Origin: Aquificota bacterium
GTDB lineage: Bacteria; Aquificota; Aquificia; Aquificales; Aquificaceae
Reading direction: 5' to 3'
NCBI GenBank assembly: GCA_013153495.1
Contig: JAADEH010000012.1
Coordinates: 124,001-188,000 of the forward strand
Length of the DNA: 64,000 nt
In this document: piece by piece, positions 24,982-40,753 of the stretch
How positions within the stretch are numbered: the stretch's first letter is position 1
Layout of the letters: every line of letters begins with the position of its first letter
Notes under the pieces: generated by a model
Told to the model about the DNA's origin: nothing
Seen by the model: the letters and a program-made list of their open reading frames with translations, nothing else
Databases searched by the model: none
Translations under genes and position numbers: made by a program

Positions 24982-25563
24982 TCACCTGCGGTTGAAGAGG
25001 GCTTTCAGGGTGGTTTTTTTTACTTCCTCGACGAGTTTTTTCCGGGGTATGGTGAGCATGTTCATCTCCCACAGTATGAAGAGTCTTTCTATGGAACCTA
25101 CTATGATGCTGAGGGCTACTTCCGGGGTTACGGATATTTGTCCCTTTTTGTAGGCTTCACGGAACATGTTTATGAGAAGGTTTCCCGGTAGGCGTCCGTT
25201 GTTGCCGTTGTGTCTGAGTATGTGATACACGGTCAGAAATCTGAAGGCGTCGGGGTTTTCGAAGGCGTAATTTATGAGGACTTCGATTAGCTTGGAAATC
25301 CTTGACTTTATGTCCCTCTGGGTGAGAACTTCCTCCCTGATGAGCAGGTTTATGTCGTTGGAAATTTTCGCTATCAGGTAGTTAACTATTTCGTCCTTGC
25401 TGGTGAAGTGTCTGTATATAGCTCCTTCGGTAATCCCCACTCTGCGGGCTATGTCCTTTATGGTCGTGCCTTTGAAACCCTTCTTTGAAAAGAGTCTCAG
25501 AGCCACGATGGAAATCTTTTCCTTAGTGGGAGTAAGCTCCCAGGTTCTTCCTTTCCCACTCAT
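24982..25563 (-). CDS. TetR/AcrR family regulator
   Basis: The 193-residue protein has an N-terminal TetR helix-turn-helix (ISIVALRLFSKKGFKGTTIK, then RRVGITEGAIYRHFTSKDEI). An alpha-helical ligand domain follows. The ATG at 25563 overlaps the end of nirDL by 41 bases, so expression is tied to the nir operon unless an internal promoter exists. Its ligand and targets are unknown. Placement after the heme d1 genes suggests, but does not prove, a role in controlling them. Confidence 0.85.
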   Translation of the reverse strand: MSGKGRTWELTPTKEKISIVALRLFSKKGFKGTTIKDIARRVGITEGAIYRHFTSKDEIVNYLIAKISNDINLLIREEVLTQRDIKSRISKLIEVLINYAFENPDAFRFLTVYHILRHNGNNGRLPGNLLINMFREAYKKGQISVTPEVALSIIVGSIERLFILWEMNMLTIPRKKLVEEVKKTTLKALFNRR

Positions 25564-26533
25564 AAAACTCCTCCGAAAAGAGCTTTACCCTCCTCTTCTT
25601 GAACTCCCTCGTGGAAAACAGGACTGCGTAATCTATGGGTTTTATGACCTCTTTAAGTTCTCGGGCAAACTCGAGGACTTCTTCCCTGCTGTGTCCGTGA
25701 ACCATGGAGAAGAGGTTGAACTTCCACAGCTCGCTGGTGGTTCTCCGGTAGCAGTGGGATACGCTCCTGTAAGAGGCTAAGAGCTGTCCTGCCTCATCTA
25801 CTCTGTCCTCGGGAACCTGCCAAACGACCATTCCGTTAGCTTTGAAACCGACCTTACGGTGGTAAAGGATTGCGGAGAACCTACGCATTATGCCTCTTTC
25901 TTTCAAACTTCTCAGGTGCTTTACGAGTTCCTCCTCCGTGATAGACATCTCCCGTGCGAGTTTGCCAAAAGGTCTCGGCTCCAAGGGAATATCTTCCTGA
26001 GTGCGCTTTATGACTTCCCTCTCAAGGGGAGAGATGGGATGAGGTTTGCTTTCTACCACGGGTTTTATCTCTTCCTTTTCCTTTAAGTCGGTGTAGTCGA
26101 GACGAACTCCTATCTTGTAGGTCTTGATTGTTCTTAGGACTGCGAACTCCTCCACACCGCACAGGTCCGCTATAAGTTCTACCGTCTCCTCGAGGGAGAG
26201 TTTCGAGTCCGGCGGAACCGCAAGGGTGAACCAGAGGTTAAAGGTGTGCTCACGCTCGTAGTTGTGGCTCACACCTGGGTGGGTGTTTACGAAGTTCGCT
26301 ACCTCTTCTATGCGTTCGGGATTGACTTTAAAAGCCACGAGGGAGCTGTCGTATCCCACAGCCCTGGTGTCGTATATGGGCGATATCTGCCTTATTATTT
26401 TGTCTTCTTTGAGCTTTTTGAGGGTTTCCAGCAGGGCGTCCTCTTCAATTCCGAGCCTCTTTGCAATTTCCGTAAAGGGTCTTTGGGTTATGGGTATGTC
26501 CTTTTGAACCTCTTTTAGAACCTTATCGAGCAT
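25523..26533 (-). CDS. nirDL: fused siroheme decarboxylase NirD-NirL (Lrp/AsnC-like)
   Basis: This 336-residue protein contains two similar halves of about 160 residues. The repeats start KDIPITQRPFTEIAKRLGIE and EDIPLEPRPFGKLAREMSIT, each an Lrp-type helix-turn-helix followed by an RAM-like alpha/beta domain with a conserved His (GVSHNYEREHTFNLW, SVSHCYRRTTSELWKFN). NirDL/GH (and AhbAB) remove acetate carboxyls from siroheme to give didecarboxysiroheme on the way to heme d1. It overlaps SUMT by 11 bases. With no separate nirG/H in view, this single fusion probably does the whole step. Confidence 0.9.
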   Translation of the reverse strand: MLDKVLKEVQKDIPITQRPFTEIAKRLGIEEDALLETLKKLKEDKIIRQISPIYDTRAVGYDSSLVAFKVNPERIEEVANFVNTHPGVSHNYEREHTFNLWFTLAVPPDSKLSLEETVELIADLCGVEEFAVLRTIKTYKIGVRLDYTDLKEKEEIKPVVESKPHPISPLEREVIKRTQEDIPLEPRPFGKLAREMSITEEELVKHLRSLKERGIMRRFSAILYHRKVGFKANGMVVWQVPEDRVDEAGQLLASYRSVSHCYRRTTSELWKFNLFSMVHGHSREEVLEFARELKEVIKPIDYAVLFSTREFKKRRVKLFSEEFYEWERKNLGAYSH

Positions 26534-27287
26534 GATAGACCTCCTCCGCTTTGAGGTTGGTAAGAAGCTCCGACAGCTCCTTTTGAAGCCTTACGACCTC
26601 TCCCACGACCATTATTGCGGGTGGGTTCACCGGTGGCGGTTCCGTGGCTACCTCCTTAAGGGTGGATACGGTAACTCTCTGTTGGGGCGTCGTTCCTCTC
26701 TCCACGAAGGCTACGGGTTCGTCGGGATTTCTGCCGGAAGCTATAAGCTCTTTGGCTATTCTCTGTCTGTTCCTGACTCCCATAAGGATTACGAGGGTGT
26801 CTATTTCCCGAAAGGCGAGCCAGTTTACCCTCTTTTCCTTTCCTGTCGCTTCGTGTCCGGTGATTACCGCAAAGGAAGAGGCTATTCCCCTGAAGGTTAA
26901 AGGTATGCCTGCGTAAGCGGGGACCGAGTATAGGGAGCTGACCCCGGGGACTATCTCGTAGGGTATGCCGTGTCTTTTTAGGTAGAGGGCTTCTTCCCCT
27001 CCTCTCCCGAAAACGAAGGGGTCTCCACCCTTGAGCCTGACGACTACCTCGTGGGTGCTTGCGTAGTAAACCAGAAGTCTGTTTATCTCCTCCTGCGGTA
27101 TGGTGTGCTTACCGTCGCTCTTTCCCACATATACGAGCTTGCAGGCGGGTTTCGTGTAGTGAAGTGCTTCTTCCGATATGAGTCTATCGTATAGAACCAC
27201 ATCCGCTTCGTGGAGAACCTTGACTGCCTTCAGCGTCAATAACTCCGGGTCCCCCGGACCTGCTCCCACCAGATAAACTTTACCCAT
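26523..27287 (-). CDS. cobA: uroporphyrinogen-III C-methyltransferase (SUMT, NirE/CobA role)
   Basis: The 254-residue protein has the SUMT signatures VYLVGAGPGDPELLTLKAV at the N-terminus, RLKGGDPFVFGRGGEEA, VPGVSSLYSVPAYAGIPLTF and TLVILMGVRN. It methylates uroporphyrinogen III at C2 and C7 with SAM to make precorrin-2. Placement between nirF and nirDL identifies it as the methyltransferase for heme d1 (NirE function), though it may also feed siroheme or cobalamin. No oxidase/ferrochelatase is fused. Three bases separate it from nirF. Confidence 0.93.
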   Translation of the reverse strand: MGKVYLVGAGPGDPELLTLKAVKVLHEADVVLYDRLISEEALHYTKPACKLVYVGKSDGKHTIPQEEINRLLVYYASTHEVVVRLKGGDPFVFGRGGEEALYLKRHGIPYEIVPGVSSLYSVPAYAGIPLTFRGIASSFAVITGHEATGKEKRVNWLAFREIDTLVILMGVRNRQRIAKELIASGRNPDEPVAFVERGTTPQQRVTVSTLKEVATEPPPVNPPAIMVVGEVVRLQKELSELLTNLKAEEVYHAR

Positions 27288-27290
27288 AGC

Positions 27291-28337
27291 TCAACCTCCC
27301 TTGATGAAAACCCCCGAGGGGGTCATGGCGGGGAACTCCTCGAGAACCTCCAAGTCCGGAACGGATACTTTCTTGAGCTTGTTCTCGTAGTAGGAAGATA
27401 TGTAAATGAACTTTCCGTCGGGTGTAAAGCGGAAGTGGAGTATCCTCCTGCCGAGGGGAACGCTTTTCAGAACTCTGAGAGTTTCCCTGTCTATTAGGGT
27501 CAGGTAATCCTCCTTATCACCGCTAAAGTTAACCGCTAAATACCTTCCGTCGGGAGACACGGACACGAATACGGGAAGACCTACAACCTCTACAGAGCCT
27601 TCGTAGGTAAAGCTTTCGAGGTTAACCACGTGAACCTTCCTATCACCCACCGCAGGTATGTAGGCGTAATTCCGGTAAACTCCCCACAGACCGAAGTGGG
27701 GAACTTTGAAAACCACCTCCTCTTTATCCTTTCTGAACTTCACCTTACGGTATGAAAAGTCTTTCAGACTCAAAACTCCCACAGAGCTTTCCTTGAAGAA
27801 ACCCACTATGTATCTGTCTCCGGCGATGAGGGCATCGAAGGGCACCCTTCCTACACCTTTTAGTTCCTTGACCTTCTTAAGGTTTTCACAATCAACCACC
27901 CAGACGGAGTCCTTATCCATAAGGGAAAAGACCAGGAGGTTTTTATAGCTCTTTATACCCACATTCTTGGAACCTGTTATGAACTCCTTAACTACCTTAA
28001 GGTCGTCGTTCAGAAACACCACCGTATGGGGGGCATAGTTTGCCACCGCTATCCTGTTTGAGCAGAAGGTAAAGCCTATGGTGCTCTTTCCCACTTTGAC
28101 CTTCTCTAAGAGGCTGTCCTTAGAAGTGTCTATCTTGGAGAGGTATCCGTCCCTGCTTATGAGGTAGGCGAACTTTCCCTTGAACTTCAGGGTTGCATGG
28201 TTTAGGTTTCCGAGGTCTTTTATGCGGTGAATACCTTTACCTTCTATAACTGCCACGCTCCCCTGCTCTCTCTCCACCACATAGACCTTTACCCCGAAGG
28301 ACAGAGATACGAGCAGTAGCAGTATCAGAGGTAGCAT
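27291..28337 (-). CDS. nirF: heme d1 biosynthesis protein NirF
   Basis: From the ATG at 28337 the protein has 348 residues. It opens with a signal peptide (MLPLILLLLVSLSFG), then forms an eight-bladed cytochrome cd1-type propeller (GSVAVIEGKGIHRIKDLG, VSVSPDGRYLAVNFSGDKED). It lacks any CxxCH. NirF is a periplasmic dehydrogenase/chaperone-like protein acting late in heme d1 formation. The longer in-frame start at 28430 lies deep in nirJ and precedes the signal peptide, so it is rejected. It overlaps nirJ by 13 bases. Confidence 0.88.
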   Translation of the reverse strand: MLPLILLLLVSLSFGVKVYVVEREQGSVAVIEGKGIHRIKDLGNLNHATLKFKGKFAYLISRDGYLSKIDTSKDSLLEKVKVGKSTIGFTFCSNRIAVANYAPHTVVFLNDDLKVVKEFITGSKNVGIKSYKNLLVFSLMDKDSVWVVDCENLKKVKELKGVGRVPFDALIAGDRYIVGFFKESSVGVLSLKDFSYRKVKFRKDKEEVVFKVPHFGLWGVYRNYAYIPAVGDRKVHVVNLESFTYEGSVEVVGLPVFVSVSPDGRYLAVNFSGDKEDYLTLIDRETLRVLKSVPLGRRILHFRFTPDGKFIYISSYYENKLKKVSVPDLEVLEEFPAMTPSGVFIKGG

Positions 28338-29413
28338 GCCGGGTCCTCCCCGAAGTAGTCTCCGGTGGCATAGTAGGCTCTTGCACGGGAGTTCCCGTTG
28401 CATATGTCCAAGTAGGGGCAGACGGAGCACTTACCCTTTACCTTGCGGGGTCTTTCCCTGAGTTTTGAAAGGAGTCCGTTGGAGTGCCATATCTCGGAAA
28501 AGCTTTTCTCCCTTAAATTTCCGATGCTGTGGAAGAAGAAGGGGTCGGGCTTGACGTTTCCCCTGTGGTCTATGTTGACCAGCCTTACACCTGCCTGATT
28601 GCCCCCCCAGACTTTAAGGTTTTCGTAGAGAAGGTTCGATCTGTCGGGATAGCGTTCCTTAAAGATTTGGTATAGCAAAACCGCATCGGTTTCGTTGTTC
28701 CCCGTTACGACCTCCAAGGAAGCTCCCCTCTCTACCAGGTCTATGGCTCTTTCCACCACGAAACGGGCGAGTTTTCGGTATTCTTCCCTCTCCACACCTG
28801 AGAGTTTCAAGCCCCTGCCGGAGTAAACGAGGTGGGAGATATAGAGCTTCGGGACTTCAAGTTCTAAGGCAAGGTCGAAAATGAAAGGAAGACTTCGGGC
28901 TGTTTGAGGTGTGAGGGTGAACCTAAGACCTACCTTTATGCCTCTTTCCCTGCACAGCAAAACCGCATTCAGGGCTTCCTCGAAGGAGTGCCTTTTTCCA
29001 CGGAAGAGGTCGTGAACCTCTGGGGTTCCGTCTATGCTTATCCCTACATAGTCGAAGCTCTCCTTTATCCTGTCGATGTTTTCCTTGTTTATCAAAAGCC
29101 CGTTGGTGGAAAGGTATGTTTTTATGCCTTTTGACCTTAAAAGGTTGGAAATTTCGTATATGTCTTCTCTAAGAAGCGGCTCTCCTCCGGACAGAACCGC
29201 AAAGCGCACTCCCTCGCTTATCAGCTCTTCGGAAATTCTGTCTATCTCATCGAGGGAAATATCTTCAGACTTGTCCTGATTGGCGGAAGAGTAGCAGTGC
29301 TTGCAGTATAGGTTGCACCTGTTGGTTAGGTTCCATATCAGGATTACTCCGGGGAAAGGTTTCACCCGCTCTCCCTTTAAAGCCTTTCTCACATACTCAG
29401 TTATTCTGAGCAT
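28325..29413 (-). CDS. nirJ: heme d1 biosynthesis radical SAM protein NirJ
   Basis: The 362-residue protein has NLTNRCNLYCKHCYS, the radical-SAM C-x3-C-x2-C site, near residue 30, AVLSGGEPLLREDIYE, and a C-terminal SPASM-like set of cysteines (VKGKCSVCPYLDICNGNSRA) near residue 330. NirJ removes propionate side chains of didecarboxysiroheme to leave the keto groups of heme d1. The order nirJ-nirF-SUMT-nirDL supports the call. It overlaps the V4R gene by 17 bases. Confidence 0.9.
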   Translation of the reverse strand: MLRITEYVRKALKGERVKPFPGVILIWNLTNRCNLYCKHCYSSANQDKSEDISLDEIDRISEELISEGVRFAVLSGGEPLLREDIYEISNLLRSKGIKTYLSTNGLLINKENIDRIKESFDYVGISIDGTPEVHDLFRGKRHSFEEALNAVLLCRERGIKVGLRFTLTPQTARSLPFIFDLALELEVPKLYISHLVYSGRGLKLSGVEREEYRKLARFVVERAIDLVERGASLEVVTGNNETDAVLLYQIFKERYPDRSNLLYENLKVWGGNQAGVRLVNIDHRGNVKPDPFFFHSIGNLREKSFSEIWHSNGLLSKLRERPRKVKGKCSVCPYLDICNGNSRARAYYATGDYFGEDPACYL

Positions 29414-29894
29414 CTTTCAGCTCCAGCTTCACCTCGCAAACCCCTTCTCCCATGGCGTTGCACTTGGTTTCGTAGGCTTTCACTCTTCGTTTTAGGAAGT
29501 TCTCCAGCACTCCCGCTACAAAACCCACCTCAAAGTGGCAAATCCTCTCCCCTATGTTGGGCATACCGCTACAGGTTATACATTCCTCGAGCCTGAAAAC
29601 CGCAACCTCCTCCTCCACCCTCTCGGGAAGGAGCAAACCTATCTTTGAGTCCTTGACGAAGGCTTCTATTTCCTCGAGGTAGCTTTTCAAGTCCGCTCGT
29701 GGAACGGTTTTTCCCACAGCCTTGCCGAGTTCCCTACCTGCATTCTGGAAGAGGACGACCGCTCCCCTATTTCCCATTAACTCCTTCAGATACATTCCCG
29801 AGTAAAGGCGGAAGGCTCTGAACACGGATAGGGGAATTTCCTCACCGAGAGTAGGTCTGTGGACGTTCCCTATAATTTTTAGCAAATCACTCAT
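29397..29894 (-). CDS. V4R (4-vinyl reductase) domain protein in the nir cluster
   Basis: From the ATG at 29894 this is a 165-residue single-domain protein. The C-terminal half carries the V4R pattern: RLEECITCSGMPNIGERICH, FEVGFVAGVLENFL, and YETKCNAMGEGVCEV, with cysteines at C-x2-C and further positions that could bind a metal or tetrapyrrole. V4R domains occur in bacteriochlorophyll BchJ, in BssR-like regulators and in hydrocarbon-sensing proteins, and bind small or tetrapyrrole-like ligands. In this cluster, between nirN and nirJ, a job in handling heme d1 intermediates is plausible. A TTG two codons earlier is possible. Confidence 0.75.
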   Translation of the reverse strand: MSDLLKIIGNVHRPTLGEEIPLSVFRAFRLYSGMYLKELMGNRGAVVLFQNAGRELGKAVGKTVPRADLKSYLEEIEAFVKDSKIGLLLPERVEEEVAVFRLEECITCSGMPNIGERICHFEVGFVAGVLENFLKRRVKAYETKCNAMGEGVCEVKLELKDAQNN

Positions 29895-31536
29895 TGCCAA
29901 GCTCCTTTATGTAAGCGAGCAAAGCCTCAACCTCTTCCGGAGTTAGGGGTATCCTCGGCATGGCGTTTCTTCTGTATCCCAAGAGCTTTGAAGTCTCCTC
30001 GGGGTTGAGCATCTGGGAAACTATCTGAGCCTCGGTTCTGTTCTTGGCTATCCATCTGAAGGGCGGACCGAAGGCTTCCTCTCTCTGGTGGTGGCATCCC
30101 CAGCACTTGTTCATGAAAACCTCGTATCCCAGAAGGTAAGGGTAAAACTTCCTGCTTTTGAGGACATAGTTGTATTTACCCGCAGGATATTTTGCCTCCA
30201 CTTTTCCTACGGGCTTTAAGGTCAGGGGGTTGTAAATCAGAAGTCCGCTTTCCTTACCAACCACGCTAAGGTAGGCAAACCTGCCGTCGGGGGTGAACTC
30301 CACGTGGGTGGCAACACCCGAGTCCGTTATCCTTATCTTCTCCACCCGAAGGGTCCTTTTATCTAAGAGGGTAAAAATTCCGTCTCCGTTATCTATCCAG
30401 AGGTGAGGAACCGCAGGAGAGGTGCGAACGAAAAAACCCTCCGAACCCGTGTCCACACTTTTTACAAGTTCCCAATCGTATAGCTTCCAGATGCTCACCA
30501 GCGGGGAACCTATGTGCCGTGTGGCAAAGTAAAAATTACCCCCGCTATACCAGAAGCCTGCGGAGAAGAGATGGGGCATAGCAACTTCCTTCTCAAAGAC
30601 CTTCTCGAGGGTGTCGAGCCTGTAAACCGACAGCTTCCTCTCCGTGCGGGAGCTACCCACTATGAATTTCTCGAAGGGGTCTATGAAAAAGTCCTCGAGG
30701 GCTAAGTCTATATCCCGATAAGTTACTTTCCCTTCCTCGGATATGAAGGCTACCTTCGGAAGGTCCCGGAAGGTGAGGACGAAACCACCCTTGGAACTGA
30801 GCTCGTAAACCGCACCCGGTCTTGCGGGAAGCTTTATCTCCTTGATAGGTTTTAGGTCGGTGTTTAAAAGGACCGCTTTCGGCGGTAGGATACAGCTTGC
30901 TATCAGGACACCCTTCGGAGAAAGAGCTATGTTTCTCATATACACGCAGGCTCTGACCTGATAAAGAGGTCTTCCTTCGGTTAGGGAATAGACGACGACA
31001 TGACCGTCCCTTGCGGGAACGAAGAACCTATCCTCGGAGAACTTAACACCACCGTGAACGTTTTTGAAGGAAAAGCTGTCTAAGACTTTAGTGCCTTCCA
31101 AGAGGAGTATCCTATGAGCACCTTTGTCAACAGCAACCACGAGGTTTTTCAGGTTATTTATGGAGAGATTTTTAGGTTCTCTCTTGAGCTTTGTGTGGCT
31201 CCTCTCTATGTCCCTGACCGTGTAGCTTATCTCATCTGCGGGGGAGGTTATGTAGGCTATTATGCTGTCTATCTGTTCCTTTGACAGGTGCCTGAAGGCA
31301 GGCATAGTGGTGGCGGGTATGCCTTTCCTTATAACCTCGAAGAGGTCTTTATAACTCTTCTTCCTAAGAAATTCGGGAATTAACGGCGGAGCGGTTTTGC
31401 CTATTCTCCGCTCGTGATGACAGTCTGCACAGTGTTGAAGATACAAGCTCCTCCCATCTTGGGCAAAGGAAAAGAGAAAAAGGAAAAAAAGGGAAAGGGA
31501 GGGGGCGAGGGAGCGTGGTGAGATGAGAGGAGCCAT
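29887..31536 (-). CDS. nirN: NirN-like d1 protein with N- and C-terminal cytochrome c domains
   Basis: This 549-residue protein has a signal peptide, then a cytochrome c domain with CADCH at about residue 36 and PATTMPAFRHLS supplying a Met ligand. A d1-type eight-bladed propeller follows (about 100-450). A second cytochrome c domain at about 460-549 has CWGCH and NAMPRIPLTPEEVEALL. NirN normally has one c domain plus the propeller and works in the last dehydrogenation and transfer of heme d1 to NirS. The extra C-terminal c domain could replace a separate NirC/NirM electron carrier. It follows nirS by 11 bases and overlaps V4R by 8. Confidence 0.82.
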   Translation of the reverse strand: MAPLISPRSLAPSLSLFFLFLFSFAQDGRSLYLQHCADCHHERRIGKTAPPLIPEFLRKKSYKDLFEVIRKGIPATTMPAFRHLSKEQIDSIIAYITSPADEISYTVRDIERSHTKLKREPKNLSINNLKNLVVAVDKGAHRILLLEGTKVLDSFSFKNVHGGVKFSEDRFFVPARDGHVVVYSLTEGRPLYQVRACVYMRNIALSPKGVLIASCILPPKAVLLNTDLKPIKEIKLPARPGAVYELSSKGGFVLTFRDLPKVAFISEEGKVTYRDIDLALEDFFIDPFEKFIVGSSRTERKLSVYRLDTLEKVFEKEVAMPHLFSAGFWYSGGNFYFATRHIGSPLVSIWKLYDWELVKSVDTGSEGFFVRTSPAVPHLWIDNGDGIFTLLDKRTLRVEKIRITDSGVATHVEFTPDGRFAYLSVVGKESGLLIYNPLTLKPVGKVEAKYPAGKYNYVLKSRKFYPYLLGYEVFMNKCWGCHHQREEAFGPPFRWIAKNRTEAQIVSQMLNPEETSKLLGYRRNAMPRIPLTPEEVEALLAYIKELGNE

Positions 31537-31547
31537 CGGACCTCACC

Positions 31548-33197
31548 TCAATAGATGTCGTTGGTGGTGGTATATACGTTGAATATGCCCGTGGGTGTCC
31601 TGACCCAGTCTCCCGTAATCACTTCCTTAATCTTCATGGTTCTGTCGTCGAAGACCACTATGGCGGTGGGCTTGTCCTTCCTACCCCACACAGAGACCCA
31701 GACCTCCTTTCCATACATGTCGAACTCGGGGTGGACTATCCTTCCGTCTATGTTCTTGTATCCCTTCTTCTTAAGCTCTTCTATAACGTCTATGGTCTTG
31801 ATTACCTTGAGGCTGTCCTTGTCTATAACGTAGAGTTGTCTTTGGAGCTTGGGGTCCGCACTGAGGGTTCTGTCAACCCAGATGTGGGGGGAGTTGGGGT
31901 GGGTCTTCACAAAGAGGGTTCCTCCTCCGGGACCGGGAAGCTCGACGTTGGCTACCAGCTTCCATGCGTATCTCGACCTGTTGACGGGGTCGGTTCCTAT
32001 GCAGGCGACGTTGTTAGAGCCGAGGTGTCCAGTGCACCAGACGGGTCCGAACCTCGGATGGACGAAGTTTGCTCCCCTTCCCGGGTGGGGTTTGACACCG
32101 GTCTCTATCTCCGCAACGAATTTCTTTTCTACCGAGTCTATGACTATTACCTTGTTCCTCATGTTTGCGGCGACGAGGAAGTATCTCTTGGAAAGGTCCC
32201 AGCCTCCGTCGTGGAGAAACCTCTCGGCATCTATGATGTGCATCTTTATGTTGGTGGGGTCTTTGTAGTTGACTATGAGAACCTTTCCGGGTTCCTTGTT
32301 GCTGACTATCCACTCCGTATCGTGGTGGGAGGCGACTATTGAAGCTACCCTCGCTTCACGAACATACTCGTTGGTGTCCCATGTGTAGTCGCTCGTGTCT
32401 ATTATCTTCAGGGGTTCGAGGGTTTGACCGTCCAGAAGGACGAAGCTGGGAGGCCAGTAGCAACCCACTATGGCGAGTTTGTCCATGTAGTCTCCCTTCG
32501 GTCCCTTATACTTGCTGGTGTCTATGGAACGAGCATCGTAGCAAACCTTTACCTCAGCAACCTTGTCGGGCTTCTTCATCCAGAGGTCTATGAGGGTTGC
32601 CTTTCCGTCCCTTCCTATTGTCAGGAAGTATCTTCCCGTTCCTGAGGAACGGAATATGTGAACCGCAAATCCGGTATCGACTATGGAGACGAGCTTTTTT
32701 GTGTCTCCGTCTATTATGGCTACCTTGCCCACATCCCTGAGTATCACTCCCATGAAGTTCTTCCAGTTGAGTTTGTGCTCGGGCTTTTTGGGTCTTGCCT
32801 CCGGGGGAACATAGACCTTCCACCACTTCTTCATGTCATCGAGGGACATGAGGGGAGGCTCAGGGGGTTCGTGCATAAGATACTTTGCTATGAGCTTAAT
32901 CTCCTCCTTCGAGAGTATTCCCTGCCTTCCCCAGTCCGGCATTCCACCGGGTGTTCCGTTGGTTATTATGGTTTCCAGATACTTGAGACCCCTCTGTCGG
33001 GTTATGTCGGGCGTTAGGGCTGGTCCCGTTGCACCTTTTCTGAGCATACCGTGGCAACCCGCACATCGGTCAAAGTAGATTTGGGTAGCCTTCTTCATCT
33101 CCTCCGGGGTCAGCTTAGGAACACTACCACCTTGGGCTACAAAGGAAAAACCCAAGGAGAGGACACCTGCCACAACACCGAGCTTGACAGCCTTCAT
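31548..33197 (-). CDS. nirS: cytochrome cd1 nitrite reductase NirS
   Basis: The 549-residue protein from ATG 33197 has a signal peptide, a cytochrome c domain with CAGCH near residue 46, and a d1 propeller. The d1 landmarks are FAVHIFRSSGTGRYFLTIGR (proximal His), ASHHDTEWIVSNKEPGKVL and GANFVHPRFGPVWCTGHLGS (distal His sites). NirS reduces nitrite to nitric oxide in the periplasm. The start is set by AGGAGG seven bases upstream; a GTG two codons earlier is less likely. A sigma-70-like promoter and shared regulatory motif lie at 33237-33288. It heads the heme d1 cluster. Confidence 0.96.
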   Translation of the reverse strand: MKAVKLGVVAGVLSLGFSFVAQGGSVPKLTPEEMKKATQIYFDRCAGCHGMLRKGATGPALTPDITRQRGLKYLETIITNGTPGGMPDWGRQGILSKEEIKLIAKYLMHEPPEPPLMSLDDMKKWWKVYVPPEARPKKPEHKLNWKNFMGVILRDVGKVAIIDGDTKKLVSIVDTGFAVHIFRSSGTGRYFLTIGRDGKATLIDLWMKKPDKVAEVKVCYDARSIDTSKYKGPKGDYMDKLAIVGCYWPPSFVLLDGQTLEPLKIIDTSDYTWDTNEYVREARVASIVASHHDTEWIVSNKEPGKVLIVNYKDPTNIKMHIIDAERFLHDGGWDLSKRYFLVAANMRNKVIVIDSVEKKFVAEIETGVKPHPGRGANFVHPRFGPVWCTGHLGSNNVACIGTDPVNRSRYAWKLVANVELPGPGGGTLFVKTHPNSPHIWVDRTLSADPKLQRQLYVIDKDSLKVIKTIDVIEELKKKGYKNIDGRIVHPEFDMYGKEVWVSVWGRKDKPTAIVVFDDRTMKIKEVITGDWVRTPTGIFNVYTTTNDIY

Positions 33198-33236
33198 AAC
33201 CACACCTCCTACTCCTGATTTATGTCATATAAAGTA

Positions 33237-33312: not shown

Positions 33313-34062
33313 TCAAGGAGTTTCCCTCCTCAGACCTGCTATAAAACCCTTAAGCACCACGAAGTAAAACATCAGGGTAATCGGGACAAGACCCCCAAAA
33401 ACCATAACCACGAAGGACCAGTCCAAGGTGTAAGTTCCCGTAACAGGGTCGTATCTGAAGCATCTCAGAAGAATTCCCTTCAGGGGACTTAGGGCTACCT
33501 TGTCAACCTTAGCAAGCTCTATAAGTTCCTTTAGCTTAGAGCTTTTAAAGGATATGCCGAGCACATAACCGGAAATCCTCAACCGAGGAGACAGAACCAC
33601 CAGGAGGTTCGGGTGGGCAAACATATCGGTTTTTTCATCGTAGAAAAACTTAAAGTCTAAGGATTTGGACAGAAGCTCGAGGTTTTCCCCTTTGGCAAGG
33701 ACGACCTCCCAACCTTCACCTATATCCCTTCTGTTTATGAAATTCCTCAAGTCCTCTACAGTATCCCTCTGGTCGAAATCAACGAGGAGGACTTTGTATG
33801 TGCCTTCGTCTATGTTCCTTAAGGCTTCTTTTAGCTTTTGGACTATGAGGGGACAGGAAGAGGTGCATCTGGTGTATATGAAGCTCAAAAGCATGGGTTT
33901 TCCGTCAGCAAGCTCTGACAGGGTGGCTGTTCTTCCTTCGGAGGTTATAAGGACTACATCGGGAACCTCTTTACCCAGCAAGAATTCCGCTTTAGGTATC
34001 AGTTCCGAGGAGAAGGATAAAAGGGAAAGGAAGAGAAGGAAGGGGACAAGGAGGGGAGCCAT
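33313..34062 (-). CDS. SCO1/SenC family copper chaperone (Cu delivery to CuA)
   Basis: This 249-residue protein has an N-terminal signal/anchor (LLVPFLLFLSLLSFSS), the SCO copper site TRCTSSCPLIVQ (C-x3-C), and a later His in AHPNLLVVL. Unusually it also has a C-terminal TM (SFVVMVFGGLVPITLMFYFV). SCO proteins insert copper into the CuA site of subunit II. It follows subunit I by 3 bases, the senC position of norSY-senC operons. It supports a working CuA site in the partner at 35780. Confidence 0.9.
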   Translation of the reverse strand: MAPLLVPFLLFLSLLSFSSELIPKAEFLLGKEVPDVVLITSEGRTATLSELADGKPMLLSFIYTRCTSSCPLIVQKLKEALRNIDEGTYKVLLVDFDQRDTVEDLRNFINRRDIGEGWEVVLAKGENLELLSKSLDFKFFYDEKTDMFAHPNLLVVLSPRLRISGYVLGISFKSSKLKELIELAKVDKVALSPLKGILLRCFRYDPVTGTYTLDWSFVVMVFGGLVPITLMFYFVVLKGFIAGLRRETP

Positions 34063-34065
34063 GGG

Positions 34066-35766
34066 TTATTTAACCTCCCACATGGCGGACAGCCAGCCGT
34101 AGTTGAGAGCCACGAATATGATGAAGGCAACCATGAATAGAAGAACCAGAACGAAGGTTCCGGGTGCCGCAAAACCCTCGTGTTCTCCCTTCTTGGGCGG
34201 CGGAGGAGGTTCCGCTATAGGTATCTGAAGGTCCTGGGGACCGTTAAAGGGCTTTCCAAAGAATACCGAAACCACCACCTGGAGTATCCATATGAGTGCT
34301 CCCACAACTGCAAGTATTCCCCCTATTCCGAAGAGCGCCCAGAAGAAGTCTGTTACCGGGTTGAAGGTGAAGGTAAAGGGTCCTCCGGAAAAGGTTATAT
34401 CCCAGTGTCTGCGGGGAACGCCGAAAGCTCCGAGTATATACATGGAAACCGCAAGTATGGCAACGCCTATACCGAATAGCCAGGGAACGAATTTGGAAAC
34501 TCCGTAGAAAGCTATCTTTTTCCTGAAGAGGAGAGGTATGAGGTAGTAGGTAACGCTCATAAAAGCGAGGGCTGTTCCGCCTACCACAGCTCCCTTAAAG
34601 TGGCCGGGAACGGATATGGTGTTGTGAACTATTATGTTGGTCTGTTCCATTCCGTTGACAACACCGGTTATACCGCCTATAAAACCGAAGATTATCATTG
34701 AAAGCATAAGTCCCGAAAATGCTGGATTTCCCCAAGGTGCAGCTTTTAGCCACTCGAAAAGTCCCTTCGTAAACCCCCTTCTCCTCTGGGCGACCTCTAT
34801 GGCGGAAGGAACCGCAAAGGCGTGTATCATGGAAGCAAAAACAGCTAAATACATAACGTAGCTCGTGTTCCAAACTTTCCAGACAGGGCTGACCGCAGGG
34901 TCAACGAGGAGGTGGTGAGCTGACGCAACGTTTATGGCGATTATGTAAAGGACGAAGGCAAATCTGCTGACCTTCTCGTTTATGGAAGTGCCTCCCACCG
35001 TCAGAAAGGCGAGGAGATACCAGACCGAAACGTGAGCGGCAACGTTAATCTGCTGAGAGGGGTGTCCGAGTCCCCACCATATGAGCTTGTAAACCGCAGG
35101 GTCTATGTCCGAGATTATTCCCAAGGACCACAAGAAGGTGGGTATGTAGATTATTGCTCCCGAAACTATGGTTATGACCGCTATTATGGCTGCAGCCATT
35201 AACCCGTAAACGAACAGGGGCAAAGATTGACCAGGATTTTCCCTCCTCCATATCATCAAGTTTGCGAAGAACACCGTAACTATTACGAGCGCTCCCACCG
35301 CAAAGAGTATCATTCCTAAGTAAAAGAGGGGGTGAGCCTTTAAGGGTGCGTAGGAAGTCATGAGAACGTCCGCATTACCCGTGAGTATGGTGTAGTTGAC
35401 CAGAAGCCAGCCTAATATGGCTAAACCCGTTCCGAGCCAGCCTGCGAAGGGAGAGGACATCCTCGTATTCAGGAATGCGGTTGAGCCAAAAACCAGTGCG
35501 GCAAGCTCGAAGAATATTATCCAGAAGACTAAAGCGTCCAGACCGTGGAGCGTGAGAACCCTGTAATACCAGTCAACCGGAAGGAGGTGAAAGAGTTGCC
35601 AGCGGGTCAAAACGAGGAGGAGCGCAGCTACAACCGCAATGAGGAAGGAAACCACAGCCATAACCGCATTTACCTTGGCTATCTTTTCTGCTCTGATGTC
35701 CACCTTGAAACCCGTAACATCACAGGTTCTAAACCACTTCTCACCCTCGTGAACAGCAACAGCCAT
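34066..35766 (-). CDS. heme-copper nitric oxide reductase subunit I (sNOR type, NorY-like)
   Basis: From ATG 35766 (AGGGAGGTGT upstream) the protein has 566 residues and about 13-14 TM segments. Heme and CuB histidines are visible: VLTLHGLDAL, WWGLGHPSQQINVAAH, ASAHHLLVDP (adjacent His pair), and IIVHNTISVPGHFKG. The helix VI site reads GHPSQQ where oxygen reductases have GHPEVY, so the cross-linked catalytic Tyr is absent. That, a CuA subunit II, SCO1 and adjacent nirS point to the sNOR group of NO reductases described from norSY-senC operons of ammonia oxidisers, reducing NO to N2O. A C-terminal proline-rich loop (EPPPPPKKGEHEG) precedes the last TM. Confidence 0.8.
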   Translation of the reverse strand: MAVAVHEGEKWFRTCDVTGFKVDIRAEKIAKVNAVMAVVSFLIAVVAALLLVLTRWQLFHLLPVDWYYRVLTLHGLDALVFWIIFFELAALVFGSTAFLNTRMSSPFAGWLGTGLAILGWLLVNYTILTGNADVLMTSYAPLKAHPLFYLGMILFAVGALVIVTVFFANLMIWRRENPGQSLPLFVYGLMAAAIIAVITIVSGAIIYIPTFLWSLGIISDIDPAVYKLIWWGLGHPSQQINVAAHVSVWYLLAFLTVGGTSINEKVSRFAFVLYIIAINVASAHHLLVDPAVSPVWKVWNTSYVMYLAVFASMIHAFAVPSAIEVAQRRRGFTKGLFEWLKAAPWGNPAFSGLMLSMIIFGFIGGITGVVNGMEQTNIIVHNTISVPGHFKGAVVGGTALAFMSVTYYLIPLLFRKKIAFYGVSKFVPWLFGIGVAILAVSMYILGAFGVPRRHWDITFSGGPFTFTFNPVTDFFWALFGIGGILAVVGALIWILQVVVSVFFGKPFNGPQDLQIPIAEPPPPPKKGEHEGFAAPGTFVLVLLFMVAFIIFVALNYGWLSAMWEVK

Positions 35767-35779
35767 AACTACACCTCCC

Positions 35780-36310
35780 TTACTCCTCGACAATTATCTT
35801 GCCTATCATCATGTGGTGTCCTATACCGCAGAACTCGTTGCAAACTATGGCATACTCACCTGCCGAGGTGGGTCTGAAGGTAAGAACATAGTCGTATTTG
35901 GGGAACACCATGAAGTTCATGTTCACCGGCTGAATGGAAAAACCGTGCAAGACGTCCAAGGAGGAGATGTGAAACCTATACTCCTCACCCTTTTTGAGGA
36001 CGAGAACAGGCTCCCAGCGGAACTGGCGTCCGAGCAGGAAAACATCGCTCCCCGGAGGAGGTTTGACGACGGGTATGCCGTTCTCCTCACCTATTTTGTA
36101 TTTTTCTATAAAGGCTTGAGTAAGTTGATAGAACTCCTCCGGAGTTGTTTTGTAGGTTACGAAGGAAGGGTTCTGCTTGGCGTAAACGTGCCATATTATC
36201 ATCCAGAAGAAGAGGAAGAGGGACATGACGAATGCCAATCCCATCCATATCTTCTCGTCCTTTGCCACCTTCTGATGGAACCAGTTTTCACCGGGCGGTA
36301 GGATAGCCAT
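35780..36310 (-). CDS. heme-copper NO reductase subunit II with CuA site (NorS-like)
   Basis: The 176-residue protein from ATG 36310 (GGGAGGTGAG upstream) has one TM (IWMGLAFVMSLFLFFWMIIW). A cupredoxin domain follows, with the CuA ligands in a LHGFSIQP His and CNEFCGIGHHMM (C-x3-C-x3-H-x2-M). It accepts electrons from a periplasmic cytochrome c and passes them to subunit I. The longer in-frame start at 36367 would lie within the small upstream gene. Gap to subunit I is 13 bases. Confidence 0.88.
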   Translation of the reverse strand: MAILPPGENWFHQKVAKDEKIWMGLAFVMSLFLFFWMIIWHVYAKQNPSFVTYKTTPEEFYQLTQAFIEKYKIGEENGIPVVKPPPGSDVFLLGRQFRWEPVLVLKKGEEYRFHISSLDVLHGFSIQPVNMNFMVFPKYDYVLTFRPTSAGEYAIVCNEFCGIGHHMMIGKIIVEE

Positions 36311-36315
36311 GGCAC

Positions 36316-36489
36316 TCACCTCCCTAAGAGGGATTGCTTTATCTCGTCTGGTATGGGCGGAATCCACGCAAGCTCCATCAGTCCCCAGATAAGGTAGGAG
36401 ACCGCATAGACTGCGACCCCTATAAACAGCAGGAGGATAAAGTCGTCGAACACGAGCTGTAAAAAGGGCGTTTTCCTCTCCTCACTCAT
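36316..36489 (-). CDS. 57-residue single-TM protein heading the NO reductase operon
   Basis: The minus-strand ATG at 36489 sits seven bases after a GGAGGT site and encodes 57 residues to a TGA at 36316. A short polar N-terminus (MSEERKTPFLQLVFDD) is followed by one TM helix (FILLLFIGVAVYAVSYLIWG) and a short tail. Its stop lies just 6 bases before the subunit II start, so it is the first gene of the operon. It resembles the small accessory subunits of heme-copper oxidases (CcoQ or subunit IV/IIa types) in size and topology, but no homology is claimed. Likely a missed structural subunit. Confidence 0.75.
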   Translation of the reverse strand: MSEERKTPFLQLVFDDFILLLFIGVAVYAVSYLIWGLMELAWIPPIPDEIKQSLLGR

Positions 36490-36664: not shown

Positions 36665-38608
36665 ATGGAGCTGGTTAGCGTGAGTTCCACCTACAGGCTC
36701 ATGCAGAGGATATCCTACGCACTCAGCGGTATATACTCCTCCAAGCTCAACCCTATTTATTACCTGGGTGCTATAACAGTTTTTCTTTTAGTTATAGACG
36801 TTCTGTCGGGAGTTTATCTGTTTATCTTCTACGACGTTGACCCGAAGGGTGCTTACCAATCTGTGGAAAACATATCCTCTTCCTTTTTAGGCAGCGTTAT
36901 GAGGGGGATACACAGATACTCCTCGGACGGGCTGATACTTTTTGCTGTTCTGCACATGCTTCACATGATATTTACGGACCGCTTCCGCATGTTCAGGTGG
37001 GTGGCTTGGGTCTCCGGCGTGGGCACATTGCTGATATTCATAGTTATAGGTTTATCGGGATACCTACTCGTATGGGACGAGAGGGCACAGCTGACGGGAT
37101 TGTTGACCGCAAAGTTTTTCAGCGTAGTCCCCATATTCGGTCATGCCTTGATGAGTGCTTTTCTGGGAACCGACATCAAGAACCTCGGTGGGTTGTTCAG
37201 GATACTTCTCTTCGGACACATAGCGGTAACTATTCTCCTCGTCTTTACCCTGTGGGTTCACGTTATGAGGATTTCAAGACCGAGGTTGTTCCCTCCAAAA
37301 TACCTGATGGTGCTCTTGACCGTATATACAGTAGGTATGGCTATTCTCTTTCCTGCAAAGAGCGACCCCCCTGCGGACTTAGGGAAGGTTCCCTTCGAGA
37401 TGAGCTTGGACTGGTTTTATCTTACGGGTTTTCCTCTCTTTAAGGTGCTCCCTCTGTCCGCAAACTGGGCTGTGTTTCTGGGCTTTTTCGGACTGCTTAC
37501 GGTTTTTCCCTGGCTCATAAAGGGAAGGAGAAACCCACCCGCACGGGTCATAGAGGACAGGTGTGAAGGTTGCAGGCAGTGTTTTGAGGACTGTCCCTAC
37601 GAAGCCATTTACATGAGGAGAGTAAACGAAAAAGAGGAAAAGGCTTTCGTTATGGAAAGCAAATGTGCTGGGTGTGGGATATGCGTGGCATCCTGCAATT
37701 ACGGAGCAAACGAAATAGATACGGTTCCTTACGGGGAAATTCTCTCCGAACTTGAGGAAAAGAGACCCAAGGTGCTCGTCTTCAGGTGTCCTTTCAGCGC
37801 TCGGGTGAAGGAGAGGGAAAACCTCTTGATTAAAACTCTTCCCTGCACAGGTGCGGTAAACACGGTTTGGTTTAAGGAGTTTTTAAAATACGCTGAAGGC
37901 GTCCTTCTAATATCCTGCGACGGACCGGACTGTTACTTCAGAGAGGGCGTAGAGTGGACCGAGGAAAGGTTTTTGGGCAAAAGGAGACCACGCTTCCCCA
38001 AGAGCTTGGAGGGAGGCAGGGTTATGATTTTGGAAGCTCCCAGCACCGCAAAGGTTGAGGACAAGGTGGAAGAGTTCATAAACTCCCTTGGAGAAGGTGA
38101 TAGGGTCAGGATAGTGGCAAAGAACAGGCTCAATCCCGTGCTCGCTCCCCTGGTGCTTGCGGTTCCTTTCTTGAGCTTCTATCCCCTGACTACCGATAAG
38201 ATGGAGTTTTACCCCACCGACAAGGCGATAGCGGTGGTTACCTTCAAGTATAGGTCCTCTCCGGTAAAAAAGGCTGAGAAGGCTTTCAGCAAGTTGGAAC
38301 ACATGAAGGCGGTTCAGAACATAGCCGTGGAGAGGTCCCCAATAGAGGTTGTCTTTGTGGTGGACGGGAGAGAGCTTCTGCGTAAGGTTTACAACCCCCG
38401 TGGCATGAGGAAAGACTCTGCCATATACGTGTATGAAGAGTTTTTAATAGAACCCGGGAGGCACACCTTCGAGCTTACTCTGAGGGAAACCGCAAATCCT
38501 AAGAAGGTGGTTCACTTTACCTTAAACCGTCAGCTGGAACGGAAGACGAGCCTTGCAATAACCTTTGACGAGGACAGAGGGTTCTTTCCGATAGGTGAGC
38601 ACTTTTAG
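36665..38608 (+). CDS. cytochrome b / 2[4Fe-4S] ferredoxin / MvhD-like fusion protein
   Basis: This 647-residue protein has three recognisable parts. Residues 1-290 form a cytochrome b of the bc1/b6 N-terminal type with paired haem histidines (GIHRYSSDGLILFAVLHMLH and FGHIAVTILLVFTLWVHVM). Residues about 297-355 hold two [4Fe-4S] sites (CEGCRQCFEDCP and CAGCGICVASCNYGA). Residues about 365-430 resemble the MvhD/hydrogenase delta subunit that carries a [2Fe-2S] cluster (VLVFRCPFSARVKE, LISCDGPDCYFREG). The last 200 residues contain a beta-sandwich-like domain (VFVVDGRELLRKVYNPRGMR) I cannot name. It probably moves electrons between quinone and a cytoplasmic partner. A GGAGGT site precedes the ATG. 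Divergent from the NO reductase operon. Confidence 0.8.
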   Translation: MELVSVSSTYRLMQRISYALSGIYSSKLNPIYYLGAITVFLLVIDVLSGVYLFIFYDVDPKGAYQSVENISSSFLGSVMRGIHRYSSDGLILFAVLHMLHMIFTDRFRMFRWVAWVSGVGTLLIFIVIGLSGYLLVWDERAQLTGLLTAKFFSVVPIFGHALMSAFLGTDIKNLGGLFRILLFGHIAVTILLVFTLWVHVMRISRPRLFPPKYLMVLLTVYTVGMAILFPAKSDPPADLGKVPFEMSLDWFYLTGFPLFKVLPLSANWAVFLGFFGLLTVFPWLIKGRRNPPARVIEDRCEGCRQCFEDCPYEAIYMRRVNEKEEKAFVMESKCAGCGICVASCNYGANEIDTVPYGEILSELEEKRPKVLVFRCPFSARVKERENLLIKTLPCTGAVNTVWFKEFLKYAEGVLLISCDGPDCYFREGVEWTEERFLGKRRPRFPKSLEGGRVMILEAPSTAKVEDKVEEFINSLGEGDRVRIVAKNRLNPVLAPLVLAVPFLSFYPLTTDKMEFYPTDKAIAVVTFKYRSSPVKKAEKAFSKLEHMKAVQNIAVERSPIEVVFVVDGRELLRKVYNPRGMRKDSAIYVYEEFLIEPGRHTFELTLRETANPKKVVHFTLNRQLERKTSLAITFDEDRGFFPIGEHF

Positions 38609-38686: not shown

Positions 38687-39121
38687 ATGCTGATAGCTCA
38701 GTATTTGACCGAAGAGCATAGGAAGTGCGACCAGTTTTACGCAGAGGCGGAGAAGGCGGTTTCGGAAGGCGATTGGAAAAAGGCAAAGAAGCTCTTCGAA
38801 GAGTTTAAAGAGAAGACCCTGCTTCACTTCCAGAAGGAGGAGGAAGTTCTATTTCCCGAGTTCGAAGCCAGAACCGGAATGGTGATGGGACCCACCCAGG
38901 TCATGAGACACGAGCACGCTCAGGCGAGGGAGCTTATAGACAGGCTCGAGAAGGCTCTCGAGGATAAGAACAAGGAGGAGTTCCTCTCGATAGGTGAGTC
39001 TCTGATGATACTAATCCAACAGCACAACATGAAGGAGGAGCAGATACTCTATCCCATGAGCGACCAGCATCTGGAAGGAGACGCTATGGTGGAAAAGATG
39101 GCTCAGCTGGGTGAGGTATGA
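38687..39121 (+). CDS. hemerythrin domain protein
   Basis: The 144-residue four-helix protein carries the di-iron ligand set: EEHRKCDQFY, LLHFQKEEEVLFPEFE, MRHEHAQARELID and QQHNMKEEQILYPMSD. Hemerythrins of this type bind O2 or NO; in bacteria they protect or repair iron centres under nitrosative stress (YtfE/RIC family is related). It sits in the denitrification region and its stop overlaps the next gene, so NO handling is likely. GAGGAGG lies just before the ATG. Confidence 0.9.
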   Translation: MLIAQYLTEEHRKCDQFYAEAEKAVSEGDWKKAKKLFEEFKEKTLLHFQKEEEVLFPEFEARTGMVMGPTQVMRHEHAQARELIDRLEKALEDKNKEEFLSIGESLMILIQQHNMKEEQILYPMSDQHLEGDAMVEKMAQLGEV

Positions 39122-40359
39122 GCGCTCCGGGTATATCCCTTCTGTATGCACCTCCCTTTAGCATAGTCTCGAGGTTCTTTCTCACCTCTGCGGTGTTCGG
39201 TGTAGTGGGAAGCCTCATAGGAATTTACCAAGCTGTAACGGGAGAGTTCCGCTTCCAAGCTCTCGTTCACACCTTTACCCTCGGATTTGCGGGAATGACG
39301 ATGGTAGGTGCATTATTCCAGATGCTTCCCGTGGTGGCGGGAGCTGTCATAGAAAACCCCCTGCGGAAAGCTACCTTCGTCCACGCAACCCTGACCGCAG
39401 GAACAGCCCTCCTCGTAGCAGGCTTGTGGGATTTCAAAAAAACTCTCCTTATTGCAGGTATCCTTCTGGTAGGAATGTCCCTTCTGTTCATACTTCCCCT
39501 TATGCTATACAAACTCCTCCGACTGAAGAGCTACACGAATACCTCGAGCGGTATGAGGTATGCCCTCCTGAGTGCAACTGCGGGAACGGTTCTGGGAATT
39601 CTTGCGGTTCTGAGCGTAGTCGGAATTCTCTGGAGCGAGCATTACAACTTCCTCAGAGAGGCTCACATGAGTCTTATGCTGTTCGGCTGGGTCGGGATAC
39701 TCATAGCGTCGGTTGCCTTTCAGGTCATAGAGATGTTCTTCGTTACCCCTCCCTATCCGGAGAAATTTGCCCGAGCACTCCCCCCTCTGATTTTGCTTCT
39801 TGCCTTCGTAGGTCTTTTCTTTGAAGAATGGTTTTTTAAAATACCGCTTTCAGCGGTCCTTATAGTATTTGCTTTCCTTACCCTCGACAGGCTACGCAAA
39901 AGACGGAGAAAGATACCCGACCCCCTCGTGAGCCTCTGGTATCTGGGAATGGTTCTCCTGATAATGTCCATGACGCTTTACCCCTTTGCGGATTTCGGAA
40001 CCCGAAGCTTTACAGGTTTCTTACTTCTTTACGGGGGTTTCGTCCACAGCGTAATACTTGCCATGATGTATAGGATTATCCCCTTCCTGGTGTGGCTACA
40101 TCTGTCCAACAGGGGAGTTCCCAACGCACCCACCATGCACGAAGTCATAAGTCCCAAGAAAGCCTGGTGGCAGTTTTACCTTCACATTGCCTGCATCTCA
40201 GCCCTTGCGGTTGCGTTCCTCACAGAAAATAAGATGGTCTCGATATTGACGGGCTTTGGTTACTCTCTGTCCTTTCTCTTTCTGCTCTTGAACTTGAGCG
40301 GTGGGGTTTTTACCTACGTCAGGATAGCATACCGGTCAGATGACGCTCTTCAACGCTGA
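39118..40359 (+). CDS. polytopic membrane protein, NnrS-like / norSY-senC orf1 type
   Basis: This 413-residue protein has about 12 TM helices and conserved histidines (VHTFTLGFAGMTMVGALFQM, FLREAHMSLMLFGWVG, GFVHSVILAMMYRIIPFLVW, WLHLS). The His placement resembles that of NnrS proteins and of heme-copper oxidase subunit I relatives, and a 12-TM protein of unknown job also accompanies norSY-senC operons as orf1. NnrS relieves NO stress in denitrifiers. It overlaps hemerythrin by 4 bases. The end overlaps convergent rrf2 by 41 bases. Family membership is a best guess. Confidence 0.6.
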   Translation: MSAPGISLLYAPPFSIVSRFFLTSAVFGVVGSLIGIYQAVTGEFRFQALVHTFTLGFAGMTMVGALFQMLPVVAGAVIENPLRKATFVHATLTAGTALLVAGLWDFKKTLLIAGILLVGMSLLFILPLMLYKLLRLKSYTNTSSGMRYALLSATAGTVLGILAVLSVVGILWSEHYNFLREAHMSLMLFGWVGILIASVAFQVIEMFFVTPPYPEKFARALPPLILLLAFVGLFFEEWFFKIPLSAVLIVFAFLTLDRLRKRRRKIPDPLVSLWYLGMVLLIMSMTLYPFADFGTRSFTGFLLLYGGFVHSVILAMMYRIIPFLVWLHLSNRGVPNAPTMHEVISPKKAWWQFYLHIACISALAVAFLTENKMVSILTGFGYSLSFLFLLLNLSGGVFTYVRIAYRSDDALQR

Positions 40360-40753
40360 TTAGGTCCGCTATGGTGGTGCTCTTTAAGAAGTCAACTATG
40401 CTCTTTTTGAGTTTTTCCCACCTGTGGTGAACCACGCATGGGTTAGTGTTGAAGGTTTCGCACTTGTCCGGCATTAGAACGCAAGCCTGAAACCTGTAAT
40501 CCTCCCCCATCAGGGAGACTACATCCCACATGGTGAGCTTTTCGGGGTCAACCTTGAGGGAAAAACCTCCACGGGGTCCCTTTACCGAGTGGAGTATGTC
40601 CCTTCTGGCAAGCTCGTGGAGTATTTTGGAAAGGAAAGGTTTGGGTATGTTCTGAGCCTTCGCTATCTCGTCCGCTTTAACGAGCCTATCCCTGTGCATA
40701 GCGAGATAGGCTAAAGCCAAAAGTGCGTATCTAACTGTATCTGAGTAAATCAT
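40319..40753 (-). CDS. Rrf2 family regulator (NsrR/IscR-like)
   Basis: The 144-residue protein has the Rrf2 winged helix (MIYSDTVRYALLALAYLA, PKPFLSKILHELARRDIL, VKGPRGGFSL). It then has three cysteines at C-x6-C-x7-C (ACVLMPDKCETFNTNPCVV) where NsrR and IscR bind an Fe-S cluster (those use slightly shorter spacings). NsrR senses NO. Its location beside the NO-related genes supports that role, although it is transcribed towards them and its own targets are unknown. A plausible reader of the shared nir/nor operator. Confidence 0.82.
   Translation of the reverse strand: MIYSDTVRYALLALAYLAMHRDRLVKADEIAKAQNIPKPFLSKILHELARRDILHSVKGPRGGFSLKVDPEKLTMWDVVSLMGEDYRFQACVLMPDKCETFNTNPCVVHHRWEKLKKSIVDFLKSTTIADLISVEERHLTGMLS

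Follow-up and report, generated by a model that had tools for sequence, protein, structure and literature searches.

A cytochrome b–ferredoxin–MvhD fusion protein co-inherited with one lineage of the nitric oxide reductase eNOR, a candidate electron-transfer partner

Introduction

The NO reductase eNOR is a recently recognised enzyme and a source of N2O. Energy conservation has been predicted for it, while little is known of how it receives its electrons. Other periplasmic copper or heme enzymes are served by transmembrane Fe-S proteins of the NosR, NapGH and CcoG types, which carry electrons across the membrane. The b-type cytochrome ExtP belongs to selenite and tellurite reduction operons. 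In the acetogen Sporomusa, a link between HdrCBA-MetVF and the membrane has been proposed to run through MvhD, but the membrane partner was not identified (PMC9430772). Electron bifurcation at the outer quinone site (Qo) of cytochrome b has been reviewed (PMC6037941).

A protein that combines parts of several of these systems is encoded in the window, the whole 64,000-nucleotide stretch of an Aquificota contig that was analysed. We refer to this cytochrome b–ferredoxin–MvhD fusion protein as FUS. Its domains, its neighbors and its distribution in relation to eNOR are described here.

Results

Domain architecture of FUS

The FUS gene begins with ATG and runs as one unbroken frame (Table 1). PF00033 (cytochrome b) matched residues 24-203 (E 2.5e-17), a Fer4 dicluster matched residues 294-348, and FlpD/MvhD PF02662 matched residues 380-474 (E 1.8e-6), scoring 28.4 bits, above the curated cut-off of 22.3. 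A preliminary description of the window had proposed a 647-residue chain of cytochrome b, two [4Fe-4S] sites and an MvhD module, and the Pfam and NCBIfam matches together with the homologues bear this out.

Table 1. Features of FUS and of the neighboring genes in the window.
Feature	Position	Strand	Basis or remark
NirS cytochrome cd1 nitrite reductase	31548..33203	-	Pfam
SCO1/SenC-like copper chaperone with C-terminal TM	33313..34062	-	Pfam
eNOR subunit I, heme-copper enzyme (predicted)	34066..35793	-	Gln at active-site Tyr position (GHPSQQ)
eNOR subunit II, cupredoxin with CuA motif CNEFCGIGHHMM (predicted)	35780..36310	-	likely ATG start at 36310; COX2/CuA
Small single-TM protein, 57 aa, first gene of eNOR operon	36316..36489	-	found upstream of subunit II in several phyla
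FUS: cytochrome b, PetD-like, 2x[4Fe-4S], MvhD, TM, beta-domain	36665..38608	+	647 aa
FUS cytochrome b6-type four-helix core, residues 24-204	36734..37276	+	Pfam, invariant ligands, AF2
FUS PetD/subunit IV-like helices E and F, residues 212-284	37298..37516	+	conservation, Foldseek
FUS DWFY loop, residues 249-252	37409-37420	+	PEWY-type outer quinone-site motif
FUS 2x[4Fe-4S] ferredoxin module, residues 293-348	37541..37708	+	Pfam, Cys conservation
FUS MvhD/FlpD [2Fe-2S] module, residues 368-475 (C375, C394, C418, C423)	37766..38089	+	Pfam PF02662
FUS seventh transmembrane helix, residues 493-510	38141..38194	+	AF2, separate-ORF boundary
FUS C-terminal beta-sandwich domain, predicted to lie outside, residues 511-647	38195..38605	+	AF2
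Hemerythrin-domain protein, possible NO/Fe-S protection	38687..39121	+	Pfam; synteny within genus
NnrS/COX1-like membrane protein	39118..40359	+	weak NnrS/COX1 matches; synteny within genus
Rrf2-family regulator (NsrR superfamily)	40319..40753	-	Pfam, NCBIfam

Neither Pfam nor NCBIfam has a model that spans the whole architecture. Residues 293-474 matched positions 572-767 of the 777 in HdrA2 NF040770 (E 6e-17), and the same C-terminal ferredoxin plus MvhD module of HdrA2 was matched by 21/21 of the homologues aligned (best E 5e-38). FUS is not a member of that family; it reached 61 bits where 1100 are needed, the match is limited to the C-terminal module, and the flavin-binding HdrA part is absent. 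Among curated families the cytochrome b part came closest to ExtP NF040969 (E 2e-29), but its 102.7 bits fall short of the cut-off of 290. ExtP is confined to the four-helix part, unlike the longer FUS.

An AlphaFold2 model built from an alignment of 21 family members was confident (mean pLDDT 81.7, pTM 0.79) and predicted helices at residues 30-54, 74-103, 111-134, 171-204, 212-228, 264-284 and 493-510. In Foldseek the model aligned to bc1 cytochrome b across ∼300 columns, past the four-helix core, and the two PetD-like helices are therefore considered part of FUS. The sequence DWFY sits between these helices at the position of PEWY; the bc1 cytochrome b of the same genome carries APEWY. The diheme cytochrome b originally described thus stands, enlarged by two PetD-like helices with a quinone-site loop.

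The last ∼155 residues (∼490-647), for which the preliminary description had found no family, still match none. Pfam gave nothing above a cut-off, and no convincing relative was found in the PDB, with no Foldseek match below 1e-3. The model now resolves this region as one transmembrane helix followed by a beta-sandwich predicted to lie outside, the core of which has a pLDDT mostly >90. No conserved Cys or His was present in the beta-domain in the family alignment. A weak beta-sandwich match to HGSNAT (E about 1e-3, TMq 0.36) was not taken as kinship. In Pseudomonadota the C-terminal module is a separate ORF immediately after the rest of FUS, and in the Balneolota-type genome G136 the chain is divided there too; on L049, L050, L119 and L146-L162 the separate ORF starts ahead of the transmembrane helix. 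The boundary is therefore a natural one between subunits. One locus (L118:7181-7588, genome G189), possibly a remnant, encodes the beta-domain by itself; neither the other parts of FUS nor a FUS-type eNOR was detected with it.

Conservation and distribution of FUS

Homologues that keep the full length and the order of domains were found in Aquificota, 'Deltaproteobacteria'/Myxococcota MAGs, Pseudomonadota and Balneolota. Conservation was read from two alignments, of 21 and 26 family members. The heme ligands H83, H97, H185 and H199, D138, the eight ferredoxin cysteines (C300, C303, C306, C310, C334, C337, C340 and C344) and C375, C394 and C418 of the MvhD module were unchanged in both. With such homologues at hand, and with the four His and C300-C344 invariant, the architecture is not due to chance. 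D249 and Y252 of the DWFY loop are near-invariant and the cd-loop residues are conserved. The fourth MvhD cysteine, C423, is replaced by Pro or Ala in the Balneolota-type lineage, where the other three are kept. Conservation at the sequence level thus extends to the predicted cofactor sites and to a predicted quinone-site architecture.

Tandem duplicated FUS genes occur on four contigs, L146, L147, L148 and L149 (genomes G494, G545, G468 and G403). Every ligand is kept in both copies, and wherever the contig extends far enough a single C-terminal-domain gene is shared by the two, an arrangement that suggests a heterodimeric cytochrome b. A FUS contig assigned to Bathyarchaeota (L041, WUQU01000272.1) is probably a misbinned aquificote contig: its FUS is 56% identical to the window protein, the contig is syntenic with L040, and the genome has no eNOR.

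The neighboring NO reductase is a predicted eNOR

FUS is divergent from an NO reductase operon, as first described, and the gene order was confirmed. The enzyme had been called an sNOR. The residue at the active-site Tyr position distinguishes these classes, Gln marking eNOR and Asn marking sNOR (PMC8756737). Subunit I carries GHPSQQ where oxidases of the family carry GHPVVY, and by this key the NO reductase is a predicted eNOR. An sNOR at 34066-36489 was rejected because it needs Asn, and Gln was present in all copies seen. The adjacent cupredoxin subunit II that eNOR membership requires is present. Upstream of it, the 57-aa ORF, missing from the ORF list because of its small size, is kept in several phyla and also in an eNOR lineage without the fusion. 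It is probably the small (third) subunit of eNOR.

The minus strand of the window at 25523-33203 holds nirS with heme d1 genes. These include a second cytochrome c/d1-domain protein, a V4R/MsvR-like protein, a radical SAM gene, a further d1-type gene, a tetrapyrrole methylase and a NirDL siroheme decarboxylase.

Gene clusters in relatives

Across lineages the usual cluster comprises the small TM gene, eNOR II, eNOR I, SCO, often the heme-synthesis gene CtaB or CtaA, and FUS, with SCO present in nearly all. An Rrf2 gene adjoins the cluster in Aquificota and Balneolota-type genomes. A second COX1-like protein is also typical (L043:6703-8073, L044:9780-11249, L048:4640-6148, L049:11988-13361, L124:7046-8515); in the two copies aligned the heme-type His are kept and the CuB His pair is absent. 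No flavoprotein, HdrA or hdr gene was recognised in the FUS clusters of the window and its relatives. The window's genome encodes a complete conventional bc1 elsewhere, and no other MvhD was found in it.

In some relatives a further cluster follows on the FUS side (L035:7520-13669, L036:6729-11431, L040:11913-17945, L041:2056-7993). It encodes a 641-671 aa protein with a CuA-type C-terminus matching eNOR subunit II, along with ABC transporter and lipoprotein genes, and looks like a putative nos (N2O reductase) cluster.

Co-occurrence with eNOR

FUS co-occurs with, and is co-inherited with, one major eNOR lineage. In 61 order-level Aquificota relatives, scored for full-length FUS and for eNOR at ≥75% identity, both genes were found in the identical 16/61 genomes, from three genera. 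Both were missing from the other 45, which include three genomes of the window's own genus. The second sample was the Balneolaceae-containing class of L048 (196 genomes). FUS and FUS-type eNOR were present in the identical 14/196, always on the same strand and 1.1-1.6 kb apart; one further genome holds the FUS C-terminal domain alone. A second, Rhodothermus-like eNOR lineage (44-46% identity) was found in nine other genomes of this class, with FUS in 0/9, and the four copies of it that were checked have the Gln. Among 299 Pseudomonadota-type genomes (the phylum of L049), 28 had both genes, five had FUS alone and one had eNOR alone; the five are possibly incomplete assemblies. Naive Fisher tests, which ignore kinship, gave p = 5e-15, 1e-21 and 4e-33 for the three independent samples of 61, 196 and 299 genomes, respectively.

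The two genes also co-occurred where they lie ∼14-20 kb apart (G332, G352). In 12 further FUS genomes eNOR was identified in 10/12, the exceptions being a contig edge and the probably misbinned contig described above. The eNOR and FUS trees have common main clades, namely Balneolota-type plus L047, Aquificota plus the 'Deltaproteobacteria' group, and Pseudomonadota, of which the Aquificota plus 'Deltaproteobacteria' grouping is only moderately supported in the eNOR tree.

FUS had been suggested to serve NO or nitrite reduction. Only the NO side is supported, by co-occurrence with eNOR; nirS was present without FUS in 13 of the 61 Aquificota-order genomes, so the link of FUS is to eNOR and not to nirS. 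Rather than lacking co-occurrence with denitrification genes, FUS shows a very strong one with eNOR.

Discussion

Comparison with known systems

FUS shares with the cytochrome b of Rieske/cytochrome b complexes (b6f, bc1) two H-x13-H pairs that make up the four heme His, together with helices A-F, a cd-loop motif and an [E/D]W-type loop, and the fold match extends over ∼300 columns. Membership in that group calls for a diheme bis-His cytochrome b, which FUS has, and for a Rieske protein and a c-type cytochrome alongside, neither of which was recognised beside FUS in the window or in relatives. FUS differs further in having Asp for the Glu of PEWY, no b6f-type Cys35, a fused Fe-S/MvhD part, predicted to be cytoplasmic, and an extra beta-domain, predicted to lie outside. 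The order of the tandem 2x[4Fe-4S] and MvhD modules is that of HdrA2 and free-standing MvhD/VhuD; unlike these, FUS lacks the flavin (HdrA) part, is joined to a membrane cytochrome b, and has lost C423 in one lineage. With NosR, NapGH and CcoG it may share a functional analogy alone, as their membrane part is unrelated to its diheme cytochrome b fold. The Rhodothermus-like eNOR is of the same Gln family and has the same small upstream TM gene as the FUS-linked enzyme, whereas its cluster has no FUS, SCO or CtaB.

Full-text literature searches returned no description of FUS, and it may have been mentioned earlier in the eNOR operon literature. No described family with this architecture was found. 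The parts of FUS are known, while the combination and its exclusive tie to one eNOR lineage are provisionally considered new. As far as we have found, FUS is an undescribed covalent link of a quinone-site cytochrome b to an MvhD module.

Role of FUS

FUS accompanies one eNOR branch in no fewer than four bacterial groups and for that reason probably serves this enzyme as a dedicated partner in electron delivery. That it is a membrane electron-transfer partner dedicated to one major eNOR lineage we hold at about an even chance. Judging from fold and charge, the N-terminus, ferredoxins and MvhD would be cytoplasmic, and the quinone-site loop and beta-domain would lie outside, on the CuA side of eNOR; the charge distribution fits such a two-sided topology. 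The MvhD [2Fe-2S] cluster would be reduced from the cytoplasm by a low-potential donor, either ferredoxin or, by way of a flavoprotein, NADH. Electrons would then cross the two [4Fe-4S] clusters and both b hemes, reach the quinone pocket on the outer side and pass from there by quinone to eNOR. If the beta-domain docks eNOR, they could instead leave FUS directly to CuA. NO reduction would thereby be supplied with electrons that do not start at a conventional bc1 complex. We infer that flow from the cytoplasm to the outer quinone or eNOR is the most economical direction. The reverse net flow first proposed, from quinol to a cytoplasmic flavoprotein, would be thermodynamically uphill unless bifurcated, which would demand that it be coupled to a high-potential acceptor, and appears the less likely of the two.

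Since the genome has its own complete bc1, FUS would be an extra route, and since an eNOR lineage without the fusion exists, FUS is not required for NO chemistry itself. Several points count against a supply role. eNOR retains CuA, so that cytochrome c reduced by bc1 could presumably serve it, no flavoprotein was recognised in the clusters, direct transfer from heme b to CuA would find no bridging cofactor ligand in the beta-domain, one of four MvhD Cys is lost in the Balneolota-type lineage, and eNOR was not detected in the five Pseudomonadota-type genomes that have FUS alone.

The strongest rival to an electron-partner role is one in the assembly or maintenance of eNOR, with FUS as a NosR- or CcoG-like reductase outside catalytic electron supply. 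FUS would then pass cytoplasmic electrons outward to keep the thiols and copper of SCO and CuA reduced, and would act during cofactor insertion or after NO damage. We regard this proposal as rather unlikely. FUS does adjoin SCO, and often CtaB or CtaA, and one Pseudomonadota contig (L159) shows CtaB, FUS and the C-terminal module alone. The fusion-less eNOR clusters examined are also without SCO and CtaB genes, and for this reason the proposal gains some weight. Nevertheless, a pair of b hemes with a conserved quinone-site architecture goes beyond what a maturation reductase requires, ordinary oxidases rely on SCO and CtaB with no FUS-like protein, and FUS is retained near-perfectly alongside eNOR. 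An HdrA-like partner, as the preliminary description had it, would make FUS a junction between the quinone pool and a cytoplasmic flavoprotein, with eNOR adjacency secondary. The match of the Fd-MvhD module to the HdrA2 C-terminus in all 21 homologues is in keeping with this, as are the MvhD-membrane link proposed for Sporomusa and an HdrA-like gene (∼361 aa) in the window's genome. Yet that gene, the only HdrA-like flavoprotein, is found family-wide, equally in members without FUS, no hdr gene was recognised near FUS, and the co-occurrence signal points to eNOR, which makes the proposal improbable.

The cytochrome b/PetD core also brings to mind a Rieske-free bifurcation of quinol by a FUS-eNOR supercomplex, driven by NO reduction. 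One electron from outer-site quinol would go to the CuA of an eNOR held in place by the beta-domain. The second would cross both b hemes towards the Fe-S/MvhD side and there reduce a low-potential cytoplasmic carrier. The core is complete, with the DWFY loop and conserved cd-loop residues, the outside domain is placed where a Rieske head would dock, and the cytoplasmic Fe-S chain is of a low-potential type. There is, however, no Rieske protein, no demonstrated supercomplex and no cytoplasmic acceptor in the clusters, and FUS also occurs in lineages without an evident need for extra low-potential electrons; we consider bifurcation improbable. Least credible, and already disfavored, is the view that FUS has no functional tie to eNOR and is carried along as a passenger in a denitrification island. 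FUS does lie between nir/eNOR and other NO-related genes in Aquificota, but its co-occurrence with eNOR holds across phyla, in different gene orders and at a distance, and the two trees agree.

If bifurcation were nonetheless true, it would be of a quinone-based kind that takes its driving force from NO. As a marker, FUS separates two eNOR lineages. A co-inherited protein that joins a bc-type cytochrome b to an HdrA2-type Fe-S/MvhD module makes the electron supply of eNOR directly testable.
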